Shown here piece after piece: positions 3,001 to 11,265 of a stretch of DNA of 64,000 nucleotides. The stretch covers positions 5,629,802 to 5,693,801 of the forward strand of contig NW_023998455.1 in NCBI RefSeq assembly GCF_014805625.2, in the 5' to 3' direction. Source of the stretch: Glossina fuscipes (Eukaryota; Arthropoda; Insecta; Diptera; Glossinidae). The position numbers and the translations under genes were made by a program. The first letter of the stretch is position 1; each line of letters opens with the position of its first letter. Below the pieces are notes generated by a model. That model saw only the letters and a list, made by a program, of their open reading frames with translations, did not search any database and had not been told where the DNA came from.

Positions 3001-5990
3001 AGTTAGTAGAGAGTTTAATTTTTTTTTTTTTTTTTGTTTTCTCTTCGAGAAGACAACTTAAATCGCGCAGCATCATCGCTTAAATGGATAAATGGGTTGC
3101 TGGCATAAACGCTTTAACATCATATGAACATAGTGTATGCTTTTCGGCCACAACAGTTACACCAATTGTCGCGTCTGACTGACTGACTGACTGACTGGCT
3201 GACTAACAACGACTACTACTGCTCGCTGCTCATTTCTCCAGATAGCGGTAAATTAGTCAGTTACAAGAAATCAAATTCAATACCGGAAAAAAATAACCAA
3301 AAAAGTGAAATGTATCTTTAAAGAAAATTATAAAACAATAAATTTATTTTTTTATTTATTTTTTTTTTTTTGCTGGTTAATTTGTTAACAATTAAAATGT
3401 AAAAAAAAAAAAAATATTTGCTTTTATTTACAAAAAAAAAAAAAAAACAAAAATAAAAAAACATTATTAAAAAAACATTTATAACATGTACATATATAAA
3501 ATTTGAATAAATTTTGAATAAATTTCTCCCCCATAATAAAGCTTAAGATTTCATGCATTGATTGAAAGCCAAACCGATCCTTCTTACAAATCCTTTTAAC
3601 ATTTCCGTGGGCCCAGCCCATATGCAATGTGTGTCAATGTGTTGCAAGGTGCTTCATAACTGCTTTGCTGTTAAGGAATGAAGTAACTCATGTCTGGGTT
3701 GATGATGTTTGTGTTGCTGTTGTTTTTATTCTTGTTATTCTTGTTCTTGATGATGATGTGACTGTGTGTTTAACTGTTAATGTGCTGATTAATAATATGA
3801 CATATGAATGATTGTGATTTTCTTGTGAGTGAATGAATGAATGACTGAGTGAGTGAGTGAGTGAGTGAATGAGTATTTTTATGTTTGTGCACAAGCGTCT
3901 CCCATATAGAAAAAAAAATAAATAAAGAAAATTTCATAGATTAGCAATAAAAATTAACTTAAAGCATAAGCTTAAGAATTTGAATTATCTTCGAATTCAC
4001 AAAAATGTTTTAACGCAAACCAGTTTCTACGAAAGAAAGAGTTCGCAAAAAGCGCGCATACACTGATTCAAGCGTTCTATGAAAGCCTACAAATGATACG
4101 CAACCATAAGCTACTACTAAAGCAATAATTTTCTATTACGGAAATTAACTAAATTATATAAAACAGTCGAATCAGTATATATAGCTCAAGCTACAGCTAC
4201 CATTATTAAACAATTGTTGTGCAATTGTATCCAAAACCTTAACCAACTTAATGTAAGCACAACAAGGCGCACATATTTATTGCAAAATATTTAAATTTTA
4301 AATATATTTACTTTTCAAATAAATCCATAAACTCAAACAATCAAACAACAAAATAAATACAAATAAATGCACAAAGGCATGTATGCAGTAGTAGTAGTCT
4401 CTCGATTAGCTCTTCGGATCTCTTCAGTGAAAAGCATTTCGATATTTCTGCTATCAACTGGCTATTGATTACAATTAAGAAACATAACCAAATTTTGGGT
4501 AAACTTTGTTCATCGTACTATTAGTTGCACAAATATTTCACTTTTTGATCCATACAAGTCTTCGTGTAAGTGCTTTCCGTTATCGTCTTTATATAGAAGG
4601 CGCATAACTATGCGTATATAGTCGTTGAACCGTTTCGAACCATTTTCAATATCAAACATCTGCGTGCAAGGAACTTAAAAATAATTGCAATCAGACGAGA
4701 CAGACGGACATCGGTTCGGGGTTCTTTGAAGCTGTTTCTTGACTGTTAAAAAACATTTTGCATGACAAAATGAATACAATCACCATCCTTCGGCGGCGAG
4801 CACAAAAAAAACATCGCTTTTTCTCTCATTAGTCATCGAGTGCAACAGGCACAGTAACAAATATATATATGCATATGGTATGTGTGATCAGATAAAACTC
4901 TTAAAAATCATCCACACCTGCCAGCAGCGTATCGATATTAGTTTTCCCCTTTTTTTATGTACGGTTTTAAATTAAAGTTGTGTTGAAACCCACAATAGCG
5001 TACTCTGTCTATCTTATTTGCGCAGCCACCGTGTAAATGAGCTGACATAAGTCAGCAAAAGCTCAGGATAGGAGTCTTGTCTGACACAAAACATTTTTGG
5101 CATAAGGTGATTTTTCTTAAAGTTATTAATAGGCTGTGGATGCTTTGGTTTTTTTTTTTTTCTTTTTTTGGCAAGAGCACGAAAGCTAACGAACGGTAAC
5201 TGCAGCCGCATTTTATAAACTTTACCAAATCACATTTGTGTGGTGGTCGCCGCAAGCAGTACCCGCACAACGTTTGTAAAAAGACCAGCTTAGGTCCAGT
5301 TAAAAATGTATTTCATAAGACCATGAACGCTTAGGCCATTCCCCTGCACTTATGAAATTTCGTAACTTTCCCCAAATCTTGTTGGACAAGTAATAAATTG
5401 TATCTCATCGTCTTGGTTACGTAAATCCGTAAAGTTAGAAATTCAACTCTTTTTAGAGCTTTCTAATTTTTCTCTTTCTTTTATTTAGGTTTTTTACTCT
5501 ACACTAATTTTTATAGTATCTTTTCACCAGAATGTAGTTAGCAACATCGGATCAGATCGAATAACAGCCATGCTTTAACTATACTAAGATTTAACTAAAG
5601 ACCCGTTAAATTAAATAAATAAATAAATAAATGATAGTAGAAGAGTCTAATTAACCTAAAATCATAAAACTCACTACTGAAAGAGTCGCTTGCTTACATC
5701 TTAACAAGGCTTTTAAGAATAAGTCAAAATGTAGGTTTAAATTTAACTAAATGTTAAAAATTTCTTTGAAACGTATTTTAGTTAAAGTTAAAGCTAAATT
5801 TTCAAACACTTTCTTAAAAAAAAAAAAAAAAAAAAGGGGATTGCACTAATAGTTTTTACTTAAAAGTTAAGAAAGCGTTAAAATTAGTAAAAGCATGACA
5901 TGGCTGCTACGCCATGCCTTTGTATTTTATATTAAAACAAATTTTTTTGAGCGAGCGAGTTTGACCGAAAAATTTGATGAAATCTTCATC
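1..5990. other. non-coding AT-rich DNA downstream of the svp type 2 exon
   Basis: No coding region is supported; the short open frames here are low-complexity. The stretch holds poly-A and poly-T tracts (for example 2087-2112, 2330-2346, 2394-2410 and 5817-5835), a CTGACTGA-type tandem repeat at about 3175-3205 and a TGAG/TGAA repeat at about 3826-3870. I looked by eye on the minus strand for the svp type 1 terminal exon, which should encode a COUP-TF C-terminus ending in the AF-2 region, and did not find it. If that exon lies beyond position 1, this whole stretch is type 1 intron. Confidence 0.6.
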
Positions 5991-5995
5991 TCCCT

Positions 5996-6097
5996 GGGGA
6001 GATGAACTATGCTTTGATGAGAAGCATAGATGTGCCGAAACTCTCACCTCCCAGCGGTGATCCCCGGGCAACGGCTTCGGCCGGCTAAGAAGAGTTT
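5996..6097 (+). ncRNA. HDV-like self-cleaving ribozyme at the 5' end of a retroelement
   Basis: All elements of the HDV-family nested double pseudoknot can be placed in order. P1 is GGGGA (5996-6000) with TCCCC (6061-6065). J1/2 is an insert with its own 8-bp hairpin (6007-6014 with 6022-6029). P2 is AAACTCT (6038-6044) with AGAGTTT (6091-6097). P3 is CACC (6045-6048) with GGTG (6056-6059), loop L3 TCCCAGC. J1.1/4 is GGGCAA (6066-6071), as in genomic HDV. P4 is CGGC-TTCG-GCCG (6072-6083). J4/2 is GCTAAGA, with the expected catalytic C at 6085. Predicted cleavage is just 5' of G5996. P1 has only five clear pairs, shorter than the usual seven. Such ribozymes are known at the 5' ends of R2, RTE and other non-LTR retrotransposons, where they process the transcript 5' end. 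Cleavage activity is inferred, not shown. Confidence 0.85.
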
Positions 6098-6530
6098 AAG
6101 GTTTTGGGCTGCTAACTCGGCGACGAGTTTCTGAGAGATGGTGGAGGGGTTGGCTGGAAGAAGAGCTCTTACTCAATAAGCTAGTTACTACCGAGGAAAT
6201 ATATTGAATGGTATTTAAGTACAATGAAGGTAGTAATCTAGCGAGTGCATGGTAGAGTGCATTAGACTAGTCTACCATGTTCAGTGCAATACCCGAGACC
6301 TATATATCTTGAAGAAAAGTAGTTCACTTGGTGCTAGCAACCAGGAAAATATGGAGGATCCGAAGCAAGTACGGTTGTTTTTAACAACCGCCCAAAGTAT
6401 GCCATAAGGCTTTGCAAAATAAACTGGGAGCCACGGGGGTCAGGAAGCTCGCCTCACAAAGCCACGTATGCCTGCGGGTATATGATGGACTTTGTCCTTA
6501 AGTCGTAATAAATAAATAAATTAATTATAC
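5996..6530 (+). mobile_element. short ribozyme-headed retroelement, probable non-LTR or non-autonomous derivative
   Basis: The unit starts at the predicted ribozyme cleavage site and is richer in G and C than its surroundings. It contains further hairpins: AACTCG-GCGA-CGAGTT (6114-6129, a GNRA-type loop) and CATGGTAGA pairing with TCTACCATG (6248-6256 with 6271-6279). It ends in a TAAATAAATAAAT tail at about 6507-6522, like the short tandem tails of non-LTR retrotransposons and SINEs. No long ORF is present, so it may be an internally deleted copy carrying only 5' and 3' ends. The 3' boundary is uncertain, because the motif ATGCCTGCGGGTA just before the tail recurs at 6685-6697. Confidence 0.5.
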
Positions 6531-6659
6531 TATTAATGCAAAAAGGAATTGACGGACGGCCTTCCCTTTGGCCGATTGATAGAAAATGTCTGGTAAATTA
6601 ATTAACACATGCAAAAATGGAAAAGGGATATGACGAATAAGTTTTCCCCTTTTACCTAT

Positions 6660-7010
6660 TTTTACTTTTGAACACATGTCACGGATGCCTGCGGGTAATG
6701 GTGGTAATTGATCAACAGCGCAGTGGAAGCCTTATGGCGGAAGCAGTCAGTTGATCAACTTGTGAGTCCTGACTGCTTGGGTGCGGCCCCCCTAGCTAAA
6801 ATGGAACAATTGAGTGCAGCTAGGCCTCGCCATTCACCAGAGTGGGGTTTATTGTTCCATACACAATAAACTGTTCTGGACTCTGGTGCTGTTTAGGCCC
6901 CTACTCTGTGGGGATTGTCTAACTCGCCAGGGGGCGTAGTACGCTTAAAAGTGGCTTGGGCCACCGTGGGGTTAAGCCTTTCAGGCAGGAACCCACGTTA
7001 AACCCTTGCC
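6660..7010 (+). repeat. structured GC-rich segment with a chain of perfect hairpins
   Basis: This block shares ATGCCTGCGGGTA with the element just upstream and then forms several perfect inverted repeats: TTGATCAAC (6708-6716) with GTTGATCAA (6750-6758); AAGCAGTCAG (6741-6750) with CTGACTGCTT (6769-6778); CCTAGCT (6791-6797) with AGCTAGG (6818-6824); CACCAGAGT (6835-6843) with ACTCTGGTG (6880-6888); TTTATTGT (6848-6855) with ACAATAAA (6863-6870); CGTGGG (6965-6970) with CCCACG (6992-6997). Some alternatives overlap and exclude each other. There is no ORF of note. It could be another untranslated segment of the ribozyme-headed element or a second structured insertion; I do not recognise the family. 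Confidence 0.5.
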
Positions 7011-7039
7011 ACAAATTCTCCCTCTATTCGAAATCAGTC

Positions 7040-8283: not shown

Positions 8284-9854
8284 TTATAATTGCCATCTAT
8301 TGCCGAAACTATAAGGCGAATAGCGGTAACTGGGGCTACCGAATGAAGCACCACTGCCAGAGTGAGCTGCAGCCGCCGCAGCGGCTGCTGCATGACTCAC
8401 CCCGAAAGGAGTGCTATGATGGAACATGTCAAACGCCGTACCGAAGGCAGCGCGTGGTGGAGTTTGATAGAACATAGCAGCAGCAGCCGCAGCGGCTTGT
8501 TGTTGTTGCTGTTGCTGTTGCTGCTGCTGCTGCTGCTGCTGACTGTGTTGGGCGGAAGAGGAAGACGGCGACGGATATGACGGATTAGCCATAACAGTGG
8601 GTGTGTTACATGACATTGAAGTAACCGCATGATTACTAGATTGAAGAGGAGAATTACTACCGTTAAGTGTTTGAGAATTCACGGAATTACCTAAGCCACT
8701 ACTATTATTGGTTAGATTATTATTTGCACTATTATTTGCACTGTTGTATAAAGCGGTAAGTAAGTCATCTTGATTTACATTTTTCGTATGTGAAGGAGCA
8801 CAAGTACTAAAAGCACTCGTAGCTGAATGCACGATACCACCGGCTGTGCTGGTATTAGCAGAAGTTCGCGAAGACGAGGCGGCGGAGGTACCCGTAGAAA
8901 TTGTGCTAACAGCACTAGAAGAATTAAAGTGATCTTTTCTGCTGTTGCTGTGACCAGAACAAATTTGTGCTACCGTCTCTACGCCAGCCACAGTTTTCAT
9001 AAAGGTGGCCAAATGCAAAGCAGCAGCAGAAAATTGTTGCTGTTGCTGCTCTGCTTCCAAACGATTAAATTCATCTAAATGTTCCTTAACCAACAACATA
9101 ATATCGTCGCTGCCTTCGCTAGAACGTTCAGAACTATCCGATGAATTGTGACTAGCATTAGTATTAGTAGTAGTAGTAGTAGTAGTAGTAGTACCAGTAG
9201 TAGTAGTGGCATTGTTACCACTTCCACTTAGAGTAGATACTTTTAGAGAGATTTTTGTTAGTAGTGCTGGCACGTCCTTAAAAAGGATATCCAGCAACTT
9301 ACCGGTAGTGAATAGCACTATAGCTTTCAAACACGAATACTCGGCCGAATCGACATGCAAAGCTTTCAGTTTCTCCACTTGCTCTTGAAAGATACGTATG
9401 TGATCCATGAAGGCCACTACCCGATCTGCCGCCATAGGTGAAGCATGCAGACCGGCTGCTGCTAGCAAAGGCGCCACATGCAGCGGCATTGAACATTGGC
9501 TGGCATTTAAAACGAACAACTCGGACCAAACTAGCCTTAACAGGGCTACTTGATCTGTTACTTGCAGTTCGGGAAAGAAAGGTATATTTTTGGCCCATTC
9601 AACGGCGGAGAACAATAAACGAGCCGCCAATTCGCAGATATTGTCAATGCCCATAATATTATTTGGTTGCATGCACTGACCGTAACGGGAGGTGGGATAT
9701 GGCTCGGCACGCAACAGCAACGAAATATAGGAACTCAGGTAAGAATGACCATTGAAGCCGGCCACACCCATAGGATCACCATTGGCTAATTGATATTGGC
9801 CATGCATACCCGCTAGGCCGGGTTGTGTGGGCGGCACGCGACCACGCTGAACAG
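8284..9854 (-). CDS. svp: seven-up, terminal coding exon of the type 2 isoform (ligand-binding domain and tail)
   Basis: Encodes residues 300-822 and a TAA stop. The acceptor is TTCTTTGCAG followed by CTGTTCAG, giving A300[12 protein letters not shown] in frame with exon 2. Residues 300-483 are the part shared with type 1: hinge, then the COUP-TF ligand-binding domain ([59 protein letters not shown]). At residue 484 the frame runs through a splice donor into the type 2 tail (484-822): [15 protein letters not shown], Thr, Ser and Asn tracts, [16 protein letters not shown], a 15-Gln run at about 738-752, Ala runs at 753-759 and later, and the end [17 protein letters not shown]. This tail matches the svp type 2 architecture known from Drosophila, in which the later ligand-binding-domain helices and AF-2 are missing. 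The reading frame stays open into the intron up to 9972, but that part is intronic poly-A and is not coding. Confidence 0.94.
9297..9303 (-). promoter_or_regulatory. svp: internal 5' splice site separating svp type 1 from type 2
   Basis: On the minus strand the exon reads TTC ACT ACC G followed by GTAAGT, a perfect donor inside an open frame. The exon side leaves a single G, which would start an aspartate codon (GAT or GAC), as expected for the type 1 sequence FTTDACG known from Drosophila. Use of this donor ends the shared exon at 9303; failure to use it yields type 2. Isoform choice is therefore likely a competition between this donor and polyadenylation of the type 2 3' UTR. The donor position and phase are seen directly; the isoform assignment rests on family knowledge. 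Confidence 0.85.
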
Positions 9855-11265
9855 CTGCAAAGAAAAAAAAATGAAATAAATAAAACCATTTAGTAAAAGT
9901 AGAGAAATTTAAAAAAAAAAAAAAAAAAAAGAAAAGAATCGCTATACAAATAAATTCTAAGATGCTAAGCAAATGTCGCCTAAGTTGCTATCCAATATTA
10001 GCATAAGAGAAAAATAGTTCAAAAAAGTCTCTTTTCAACATTTATTTTTATCTCGAACTATCACGCTCTCTTTCTCTTCTTCGTATGCATTCGTTGGATT
10101 TTCACGACAAATTTTCGTATTCCGTTTTCGATTAGTTACAAAAAAGATTTAAATATTTTGAAACTGAGGAATTTTTTCCTTCAGAGAAAGACACAATAAA
10201 CACAAAAGCGATTATTTTGACCACTACATCACACGCAATGCTTCAACAATAGTAACTTGTCTGTCAATCTGTGCTGGTTTGTTGTCTGTCTGCCTATGCA
10301 GCGAATATATTCTATGTCACTGCGCTTTACCAAGCCCATGTGTCTTCATGTACGTTTCCTTATGCTTTAAGAAATTTGCTTTTCAAATAATGCCACATCA
10401 GACAATAAAAGTTGAAATGAAATCAGACAACCTCAATCTCTTTAAGCAGAACATTACACAACACAACACAACACAACACACAGCACAACGAAAAAAAATG
10501 ATTTTATTGTTATGAAAATCTTTAGCGTAAACAACCCTCAGACTAACGATAAGCTGAAAACTGAAATAGAAGTACGAGAGCACAAGAGGAGAACAATGAA
10601 CGCACAACACTTCCTGATAATCGAGCATAAGCGCGTAAGTAGATACTTTATCTACGTTTACTCCATATAGACGGAGACAGTTGAAATCGTCGTCACCATT
10701 AGTTAGAGCAACGAAAGGTCTCTATCTATACGGGCGCAACCCTTTTGCTTTTTTTTTTTTTTTTTTTTTTTTTTTTTCGTAAAACGCGTCATAAAGTTTA
10801 CAATATATGAACGCGTGAATACAGACGTATTCTGTTATTCTTTTGTCACTGCTTAACAAAATTACAGTGTGTGCCTATGTGTGTAGTAATATTTCAACAC
10901 ATTGAAAACTGAATGCAGTTTTTTTTTTTTTAAACATTTGTTTGTCATTTTATATAAATTGACGATAACGAAAATTTACTTTTCATTAAAAATTTCCATT
11001 CATTAATATTTAAAATATACATAGATGTGTGTATGTGCGCATATAAGGTCTCAAAAATGAAGGAGAAATGTCAGAGAATAACTTTTTAAGAAGCAATACA
11101 TTATTGCACTACAACGCAGTATACAGTGGCAGTAGCACCAATACTTTAATTAGTCACAGGAAAGTCAATACTAATGACGTAAGCAGTGTTTTAAGGGCAT
11201 TACGTCGCCTATCTCGAGCCAGAACTTGAATATTCGCCATCTATCGGCAACACTTCAATCCAATA

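Follow-up and report, generated by a model that had tools for sequence, protein, structure and literature searches.

The fold and the element at the locus

The window analysed here is a stretch of 64,000 nucleotides from Glossina fuscipes (contig NW_023998455.1, positions 5,629,802 to 5,693,801), and on its forward strand a non-coding repeated element opens with a predicted self-cleaving ribozyme of the HDV-like type (Table 1). As judged from sequence comparison, the fold at the head of this element is real and marks its exact 5′ end, because copies begin at G5996 and diverged copies keep the fold with compensatory changes. The original prediction had placed P1 to P4, L3, J1.1/4 and J4/2 in order here, and each of these parts was found where it had been named, including the 7-bp P2, the UUCG-capped P4 and the proposed catalytic C at 6085. 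The extra hairpin described in J1/2 as 8 bp long is likewise present, with eight Watson-Crick pairs and one additional G-U pair. P1 to P4 form a nested double pseudoknot in which P2 crosses P1, the arrangement by which HDV-like ribozymes are recognised, and C6085 fits the active-site position of known HDV-like ribozymes, the C after P4. P1 in the window copy is short, with five Watson-Crick pairs that could be extended only via a tandem G-A mismatch.

Table 1. Positions of the features discussed, in window coordinates unless a locus is named
Feature	Position	Strand	Remarks
Host flank TTCATCTCCC	5985..5994	+	reverse complement of 5997-6006
Whole non-coding element (SIDE)	5996..7018	+	both ends common to 21 copies; target-site duplications in 31/39 copies
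HDV-like ribozyme	5996..6097	+	predicted cut between T5995 and G5996; fold match, descriptor, pairing counts
P1 5′ strand GGGGA	5996..6000	+	partner 6061-6065
Extra J1/2 hairpin	6007..6029	+	9 pairs: 8 Watson-Crick and 1 G-U
P2 5′ strand AAACTCT	6038..6044	+	partner AGAGTTT 6091-6097
P3 CACC / GGTG	6045-6048 / 6056-6059	+
L3 TCCCAGC	6049-6055	+	inside P3
P1 3′ strand TCCCC	6061..6065	+	pairs with 5996-6000
J1.1/4 GGGCAA	6066-6071	+
P4 CGGC-TTCG-GCCG	6072-6083	+	UUCG loop
J4/2 GCTAAGA	6084-6090	+	proposed catalytic C6085
P2 3′ strand AGAGTTT	6091-6097	+
3′ region with R1-like 3′ UTR blocks	6818..7006	+	unit 859-886, 992-1047
R1-like blocks in locus L067	1656-1699 (82%), 1783-1809 (86%), 1942-1998 (79%)		comparison with unit

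In the covariance search that had been proposed as a check, Rfam returned no match in the window at the gathering threshold. The nearest model, RF02682 (HDV, F. prausnitzii), matches 6029–6097 over its full length but scores 31.9 bits (E 2.3e-4 in 301 bp), short of the 44 bits set for gathering. The match begins past the true 5′ strand of P1 because J1/2 is long. Among six other heads of the family, three scored 25.6–29.6 bits and three gave no match. A descriptor of the core, run on both strands, finds a single site in the window, the fold at 5996, and none in 200 first-order random 64-kb sequences scanned on one strand, a weak control since the descriptor was composed after the site had been seen. 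Folding energy is unremarkable (z −1.14, with 27 of 200 shuffles equally low), and nested folding energy says little about a pseudoknot.

The genome (366 Mb in 709 contigs) was searched with 5996–6500, which yielded 533 first-look candidates, and the best 40 were scored at 98–100% identity. As anticipated from the proposed search for copies starting at the ribozyme, 34 of these best 40 align from the first base and the other six from base 2, 3 or 4; being the best-scoring copies, they under-represent 5′-truncated ones. A G stands at the position of G5996 in 35 of the 40. In the 21 copies with long flanks (the window copy and 20 others), both ends are fixed, and the printed flanks differ in each copy. 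Nineteen of the 21 start with GGGG at G5996, where the 5′ end of a retroelement had been predicted, and two (L011 and L026) align only from the third base. The window copy measures 1,024 bp and the others 1,056–1,067 bp (~1,060). No poly(A) or simple-repeat tail was found at the 3′ end in these 21 copies, and their majority sequence, read by eye in six frames, has a longest stop-free stretch of ~68 amino acids, so that coding capacity is absent. Two simple patterns for a Pol III B-box had no match in 5996–7019 of the window copy, which lacks ~36 bp, and we rejected a Pol III SINE on this ground. An end of the element at the AT-rich tract near 6520 was also rejected, as copies continue to 7018.

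Target-site duplications (TSDs) were assessed in 39 of the 40 copies, with L041, which has no tail in its stretch, left out and L012 taken by its second tail. Under a threshold that tolerates small mismatches, 31 of the 39 pass, 17 of them with 12–13 bp and the rest with 7–15 bp, and mismatched flank pairs pass in 4 of 1,482 cases. Eight copies, the window copy included, have no TSD above threshold. In 29 of the 31 TSD copies a T precedes the duplication, and the unit also ends in T; this terminal T may belong to the target, making the duplication one base longer, and T7019 in the window is probably target-derived. Some copies carry additional tails: in L014 a full copy follows a truncated one, starting 13 bp after the latter's 3′ end, L012 has a second tail fragment beside it, and these extra 3′ tail fragments resemble the tandem arrays described for R1. 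Within the unit, ATGCCTGCGGGTA occurs twice, at 6468–6480 at the end of the leader and at 6685–6697 before the R1-like part, a repetition that may mark an old fusion point.

The window copy has features of its own. An internal deletion of ~36 bp near 6789 falls inside the R1-like region, and the duplication, read by eye, is at most 5 bp (TCCCT). The host flank TTCATCTCCC creates a ten-base inverted repeat spanning the 5′ junction (5985–6006). Among the 21 copies with printed flanks this flank occurs in the window copy alone, and we therefore rejected the upstream inverted repeat as a part of the element. By complementarity, the flank can compete with P1 in this copy and could block it, which makes a construct of about 5960–6110, as proposed for a cleavage assay, a poor test. 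The window copy is probably a poor substrate for R1-clade machinery as well, because most of one R1-like block is lost to the internal deletion, and the deletion, the duplication of at most 5 bp and the flank complementary to the first bases make it a poor choice for the bench. Further along the window, an open frame on the reverse strand (8284–9987) encodes a COUP-TF-type ligand-binding domain, resembles seven-up of flies, and leaves the domain early, possibly at an alternative end.

Conservation and covariation of the ribozyme

Diverged relatives were collected by a search with a half element at locus L067, which lies behind an R1-like 3′ UTR and is a 73% identical copy of unit 34–493 with a recognisable ribozyme; similarity stops beyond unit 493. 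This search gave 512 candidates, of which the best 40 were scored (73–100% identity). Twenty-nine heads were fetched and, with L067 and the window copy, make up an alignment of 31 sequences (A3), fitted to a fold model that leaves out P2 and is based on the window copy and nine other young copies. The model detects the fold in all 31 sources, the window included. Over these sequences 91.0% of cells are paired, with 95.2% in P4, 94.0% in P2, 91.1% in P3 and 77.7% in P1, and 94.3% in the J1/2 hairpin. The fifth pair of P1 is unpaired in 19 of the 29 diverged-set sequences.

Changes on both sides of a pair occur in 16 cells, where shuffles give 5.2 and slid controls no more than 4; the slid controls weigh more, because related sequences inflate the counts of double changes. 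Further pair types show no excess (24 observed, 24.6 in shuffles). At two adjoining pairs of P2, C-G stands in 23 and 20 sequences respectively, and U-A in five at either pair; P2 of L067 has one double change and one broken pair. Compensatory changes in P1–P4 had been expected if the fold was genuine; they were found in the diverged copies and are clearest in P2, so that the fold persists in the diverged subfamily while both strands of P2 change together.

The 40 young copies vary unevenly along the ribozyme. The 3′ portion, 6061–6097, is nearly unchanged (one change in 37 sites versus 42 in 193 downstream), and C6085 is the same in all 40 and is C in 29 of the 31 aligned sequences. The 5′ strand of P1 (11 changes in 7 sites), J1/2 (20 in 35) and P2-P3-L3 (9 in 23) have more changes per site than is seen downstream. 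Nested folding gave P1 a probability below 0.5 in 31 of the 40 copies when 30 or 60 nt of upstream flank were included, a number that fell to 14 when the flank was left off; such folding cannot represent P2 and decides nothing for the pseudoknot, and one copy with an indel (L025) was indexed wrongly.

These observations bear on two readings that would strip the fold of its role. That it is a chance match has a negligible probability: folding energy alone is not significant, but the fold is conserved with covariation, starts exactly at the first base of the element and has a post hoc descriptor that no random sequence matched, and the 5′ ends of the copies and the covariation are in the main what refute this reading. 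A fold that was inherited and has become inactive, with the exact 5′ ends set by where a promoter starts transcription or by reverse transcription running up to the RNA cap, is also improbable, if less remote. The weakness of P1, the Rfam score below threshold, the mutation of L3 in several young copies and the greater change per site in the 5′ ribozyme parts would suit it, but it fits poorly with the near-invariance of 6061–6097 in the same 40 copies, with compensatory P2 changes across the diverged family and with a predicted cut position that coincides with the start of the element.

R1-like sequences and the choice of target

The original prediction held that the family could not be recognised from this copy. 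That applies to the copy by itself; with the other copies, the family can be recognised as a Short Internally Deleted Element (SIDE) that is non-autonomous and, it would seem, R1-dependent. The 28S search recovered three fragments, each starting at the R2 junction, and these are not intact rDNA. In L052 the fragment ends with GTCCCTATCTACT and is followed by sequence with ORF1-like frames, which by its position and features we take to be the 5′ end of an R1. Outside intact rDNA, at L051 (7327–8694) and L052 (1–1165), an R2-like 3′ part, a stretch of 28S and the 5′ end of an R1-like sequence follow one another, and in L053 the stretch beside the 28S fragment is mostly N. Two R2-like copies were examined for a 5′ ribozyme, and none was found in either; these copies owe their name to similarity, to motifs and to where they lie, at the R2 junction, and one frame had no Pfam match.

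A search with the R1-like 5′ region of L052 gave a 78% match on contig C273, and ~4 kb downstream lies L067, with a decayed frame containing RVT_1 (E 2.6e-19); its R1 name comes from linkage to that match rather than from a family model. Frames of this R1-like element are broken, and an intact 3′ end of R1 did not come to light. Downstream of the RVT_1 domain, the 3′ UTR of the element contains collinear matches to unit 783–826, 859–886 and 992–1047 (82%, 86% and 79%), with E 6e-9 and 2e-6 for the 3′ end of the unit and only E 0.005 for the middle block, 859–886. The block at unit 783–826 is the one mostly lost in the window copy through its internal deletion. At L067 1942–2485, the half element with its ribozyme begins within ~25 bases of the R1-like 3′ end, and the spacer may represent either a duplication of 14 bp or the 5′ strand of the ribozyme itself. 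Further R1-like sequences that are not part of intact rDNA lie at L058–L062 and L065.

A further link comes from L056, in which a 28S fragment has its R1 site occupied by an insert of ~690 bp, with TGTCACTACTTAT on one side and TGTTCCTATCTACT on the other. Similarity to the unit is found in the 3′ half of the insert (80% over 41 bp with E 5e-6, and 65% over 113 columns with E 3e-5) and is weak in the 5′ part (E 0.09 and 0.25). P2-like strands, AAACCCT and AGGGTTT, can be read there, and the ribozyme model had no match on the insert. By this similarity the insert appears to be an old relative of the element in the 28S R1 site.

The dispersed insertion sites have T at −7, C or T at −2 and T at −1, followed by G and T. 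In a matrix built from the 31 sites, the R1 site of 28S in its known form, which was then located in the 28S fragments of the genome, scores 13.54, above every one of the 31. The R1 sites in L051 (12.57) and L053 (11.38) have scores reached by none of 127,920 window positions, and the decayed site in L056 (9.54) by 16; with two sites dropped, these counts are 0, 2 and 18. The dispersed sites match 28S at a mean of 7.9 of 16 bases (30 sites) versus 4.3 in the background. A matrix of 29 sites was then applied to 22 further 5′ ends, 21 of them diverged; the other nine sources (the window, L067 and seven in which the 5′ end is truncated or unclear) were left out of the 31. The best offset was 12–13 bp in 17 of the 22, and the median best score was 4.4 versus −0.3 and −1.6 in the next stretches upstream (p 4.7e-7), a few ends being weak. 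Young and diverged insertion sites thus share the target preference of the R1 site in 28S rDNA. Only the relative in L056 was seen in the 28S R1 site itself; the 21 copies with printed flanks all lie elsewhere.

A proposed life cycle and its known relatives

From these comparisons we consider it likely that the element is a non-autonomous, non-coding, ribozyme-headed SIDE moved by R1-clade machinery. Its architecture would consist of the HDV-like ribozyme with a leader of ~400 nt, a linker, and a 3′ end recognised by that machinery. In the proposed cycle, a dispersed copy would be transcribed within a longer host RNA, and the ribozyme would cut this RNA just before G5996, releasing the element with the fixed 5′ end seen in the copies. 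An R1-clade protein acting in trans would then bind the 3′ end, whose homology to the R1-like 3′ UTR is evident, and start nick-primed reverse transcription at sites like ...TTCTTTCT followed by GTCCCTAT, in line with the target preference of the insertions. Insertion would leave the duplication that the copies carry, mostly 11–14 bp.

As the helper, a dispersed R1-clade LINE with the target preference of R1 and a similar 3′ UTR, in place of the R1 resident in 28S, is rather unlikely but deserves the most weight among the alternatives. It would agree with the dispersal of the copies, with sites that match 28S only in part (7.9 of 16 bases, 4.3 by background) and with the R1-like sequences at L058–L062 and L065. 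Yet the 28S R1 site outscores all 31 sites, a relative sits in that site in L056, and Drosophila R1 itself inserts off-target with 4–9 bp of identity and TSDs of 3–14 bp (PMC2718515). Derivation from another LINE clade with HDV-like ribozymes, such as RTE, Baggins or R4/Dong, which would have given both ends, is very unlikely. Such ribozymes are attributed to R4, Dong, baggins, L1Tc and RTE (PMC3774820), and other reverse transcriptases are abundant in the genome (4,189 first-look candidates, the best 150 scored), but the 3′ UTR homology is to an R1-like element, the target is R1-like, and copies with printed 3′ ends have no simple-repeat or poly(A) tail, so that this reading was already weakened.

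A SIDE mobilised by R1-clade machinery has its closest known counterpart in the R2/R1 hybrid SIDEs of Drosophila rDNA (PMC3414825). Both are non-coding with an HDV-like ribozyme at the 5′ end, a 3′ end with conserved R1 3′ UTR blocks and an R1-type target (theirs with a TSD of ~14 bp), and their tandem arrangement with R1 copies may be compared with L014 and L067 (PMC3414825). The hybrids were described as rare, in a few species of Drosophila, where they occupy 28S genes and rely on being transcribed together with 28S (PMC3414825). Unlike those hybrids, which sit in the 28S R1 site (PMC3414825), the Glossina copies were seen spread outside rDNA, and the element is ~1,060 bp long with an extra J1/2 hairpin and a long leader. 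The Glossina family thus appears to share the design of the R2/R1 hybrid SIDE but not its home. We found no dispersed hybrid SIDE in the literature searched, with most subscription journals lying outside it.

Retrozymes carry a hammerhead ribozyme in terminal repeats; in the window copy the fold is HDV-like and there is no long direct repeat. Like retrozymes, the Glossina element is a non-autonomous retroelement with a self-cleaving ribozyme, here a predicted one, and unlike these plant elements it has TPRT-type flanks and no long terminal direct repeats (compare PMC4918200). With the R2 retrotransposon it has in common an HDV-like fold at the 5′ end and a variable J1/2, the R2 ribozyme of Drosophila being located at the exact element end, but it has no R2 protein and is not at the R2 site (PMC3774820). 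R1 insertions outside 28S share the partial 28S-target identity at the nick and TSDs up to 14 bp (PMC2718515), but they are R1 copies themselves, and the Glossina element is a non-coding passenger with a ribozyme. Persaeus of Lepidoptera is likewise a SIDE family in insects; unlike the Glossina element it derives from CR1, and the abstract part of its description mentions no ribozyme (PMC6740152).

A dispersed family with hundreds of candidate copies, scored members that are nearly identical and exact 5′ ends set by a ribozyme would suggest that R1 machinery is able to act in trans genome-wide. It would also offer many natural sites for measuring the target choice of R1, and a set of natural variants on which HDV-like ribozymes with a large J1/2 could be tested. 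We regard as plausible, at slightly less than an even chance, that a parasite of rDNA has left rDNA, bringing its own self-cleaving 5′ end, which would spare it a promoter and free it from any host RNA into which it has inserted, and being copied genome-wide by the R1 protein at loosely matching sites. If this is true, it is the ribozyme that would allow a passenger of a site-specific retrotransposon to spread without a promoter and give rise to an abundant dispersed family.
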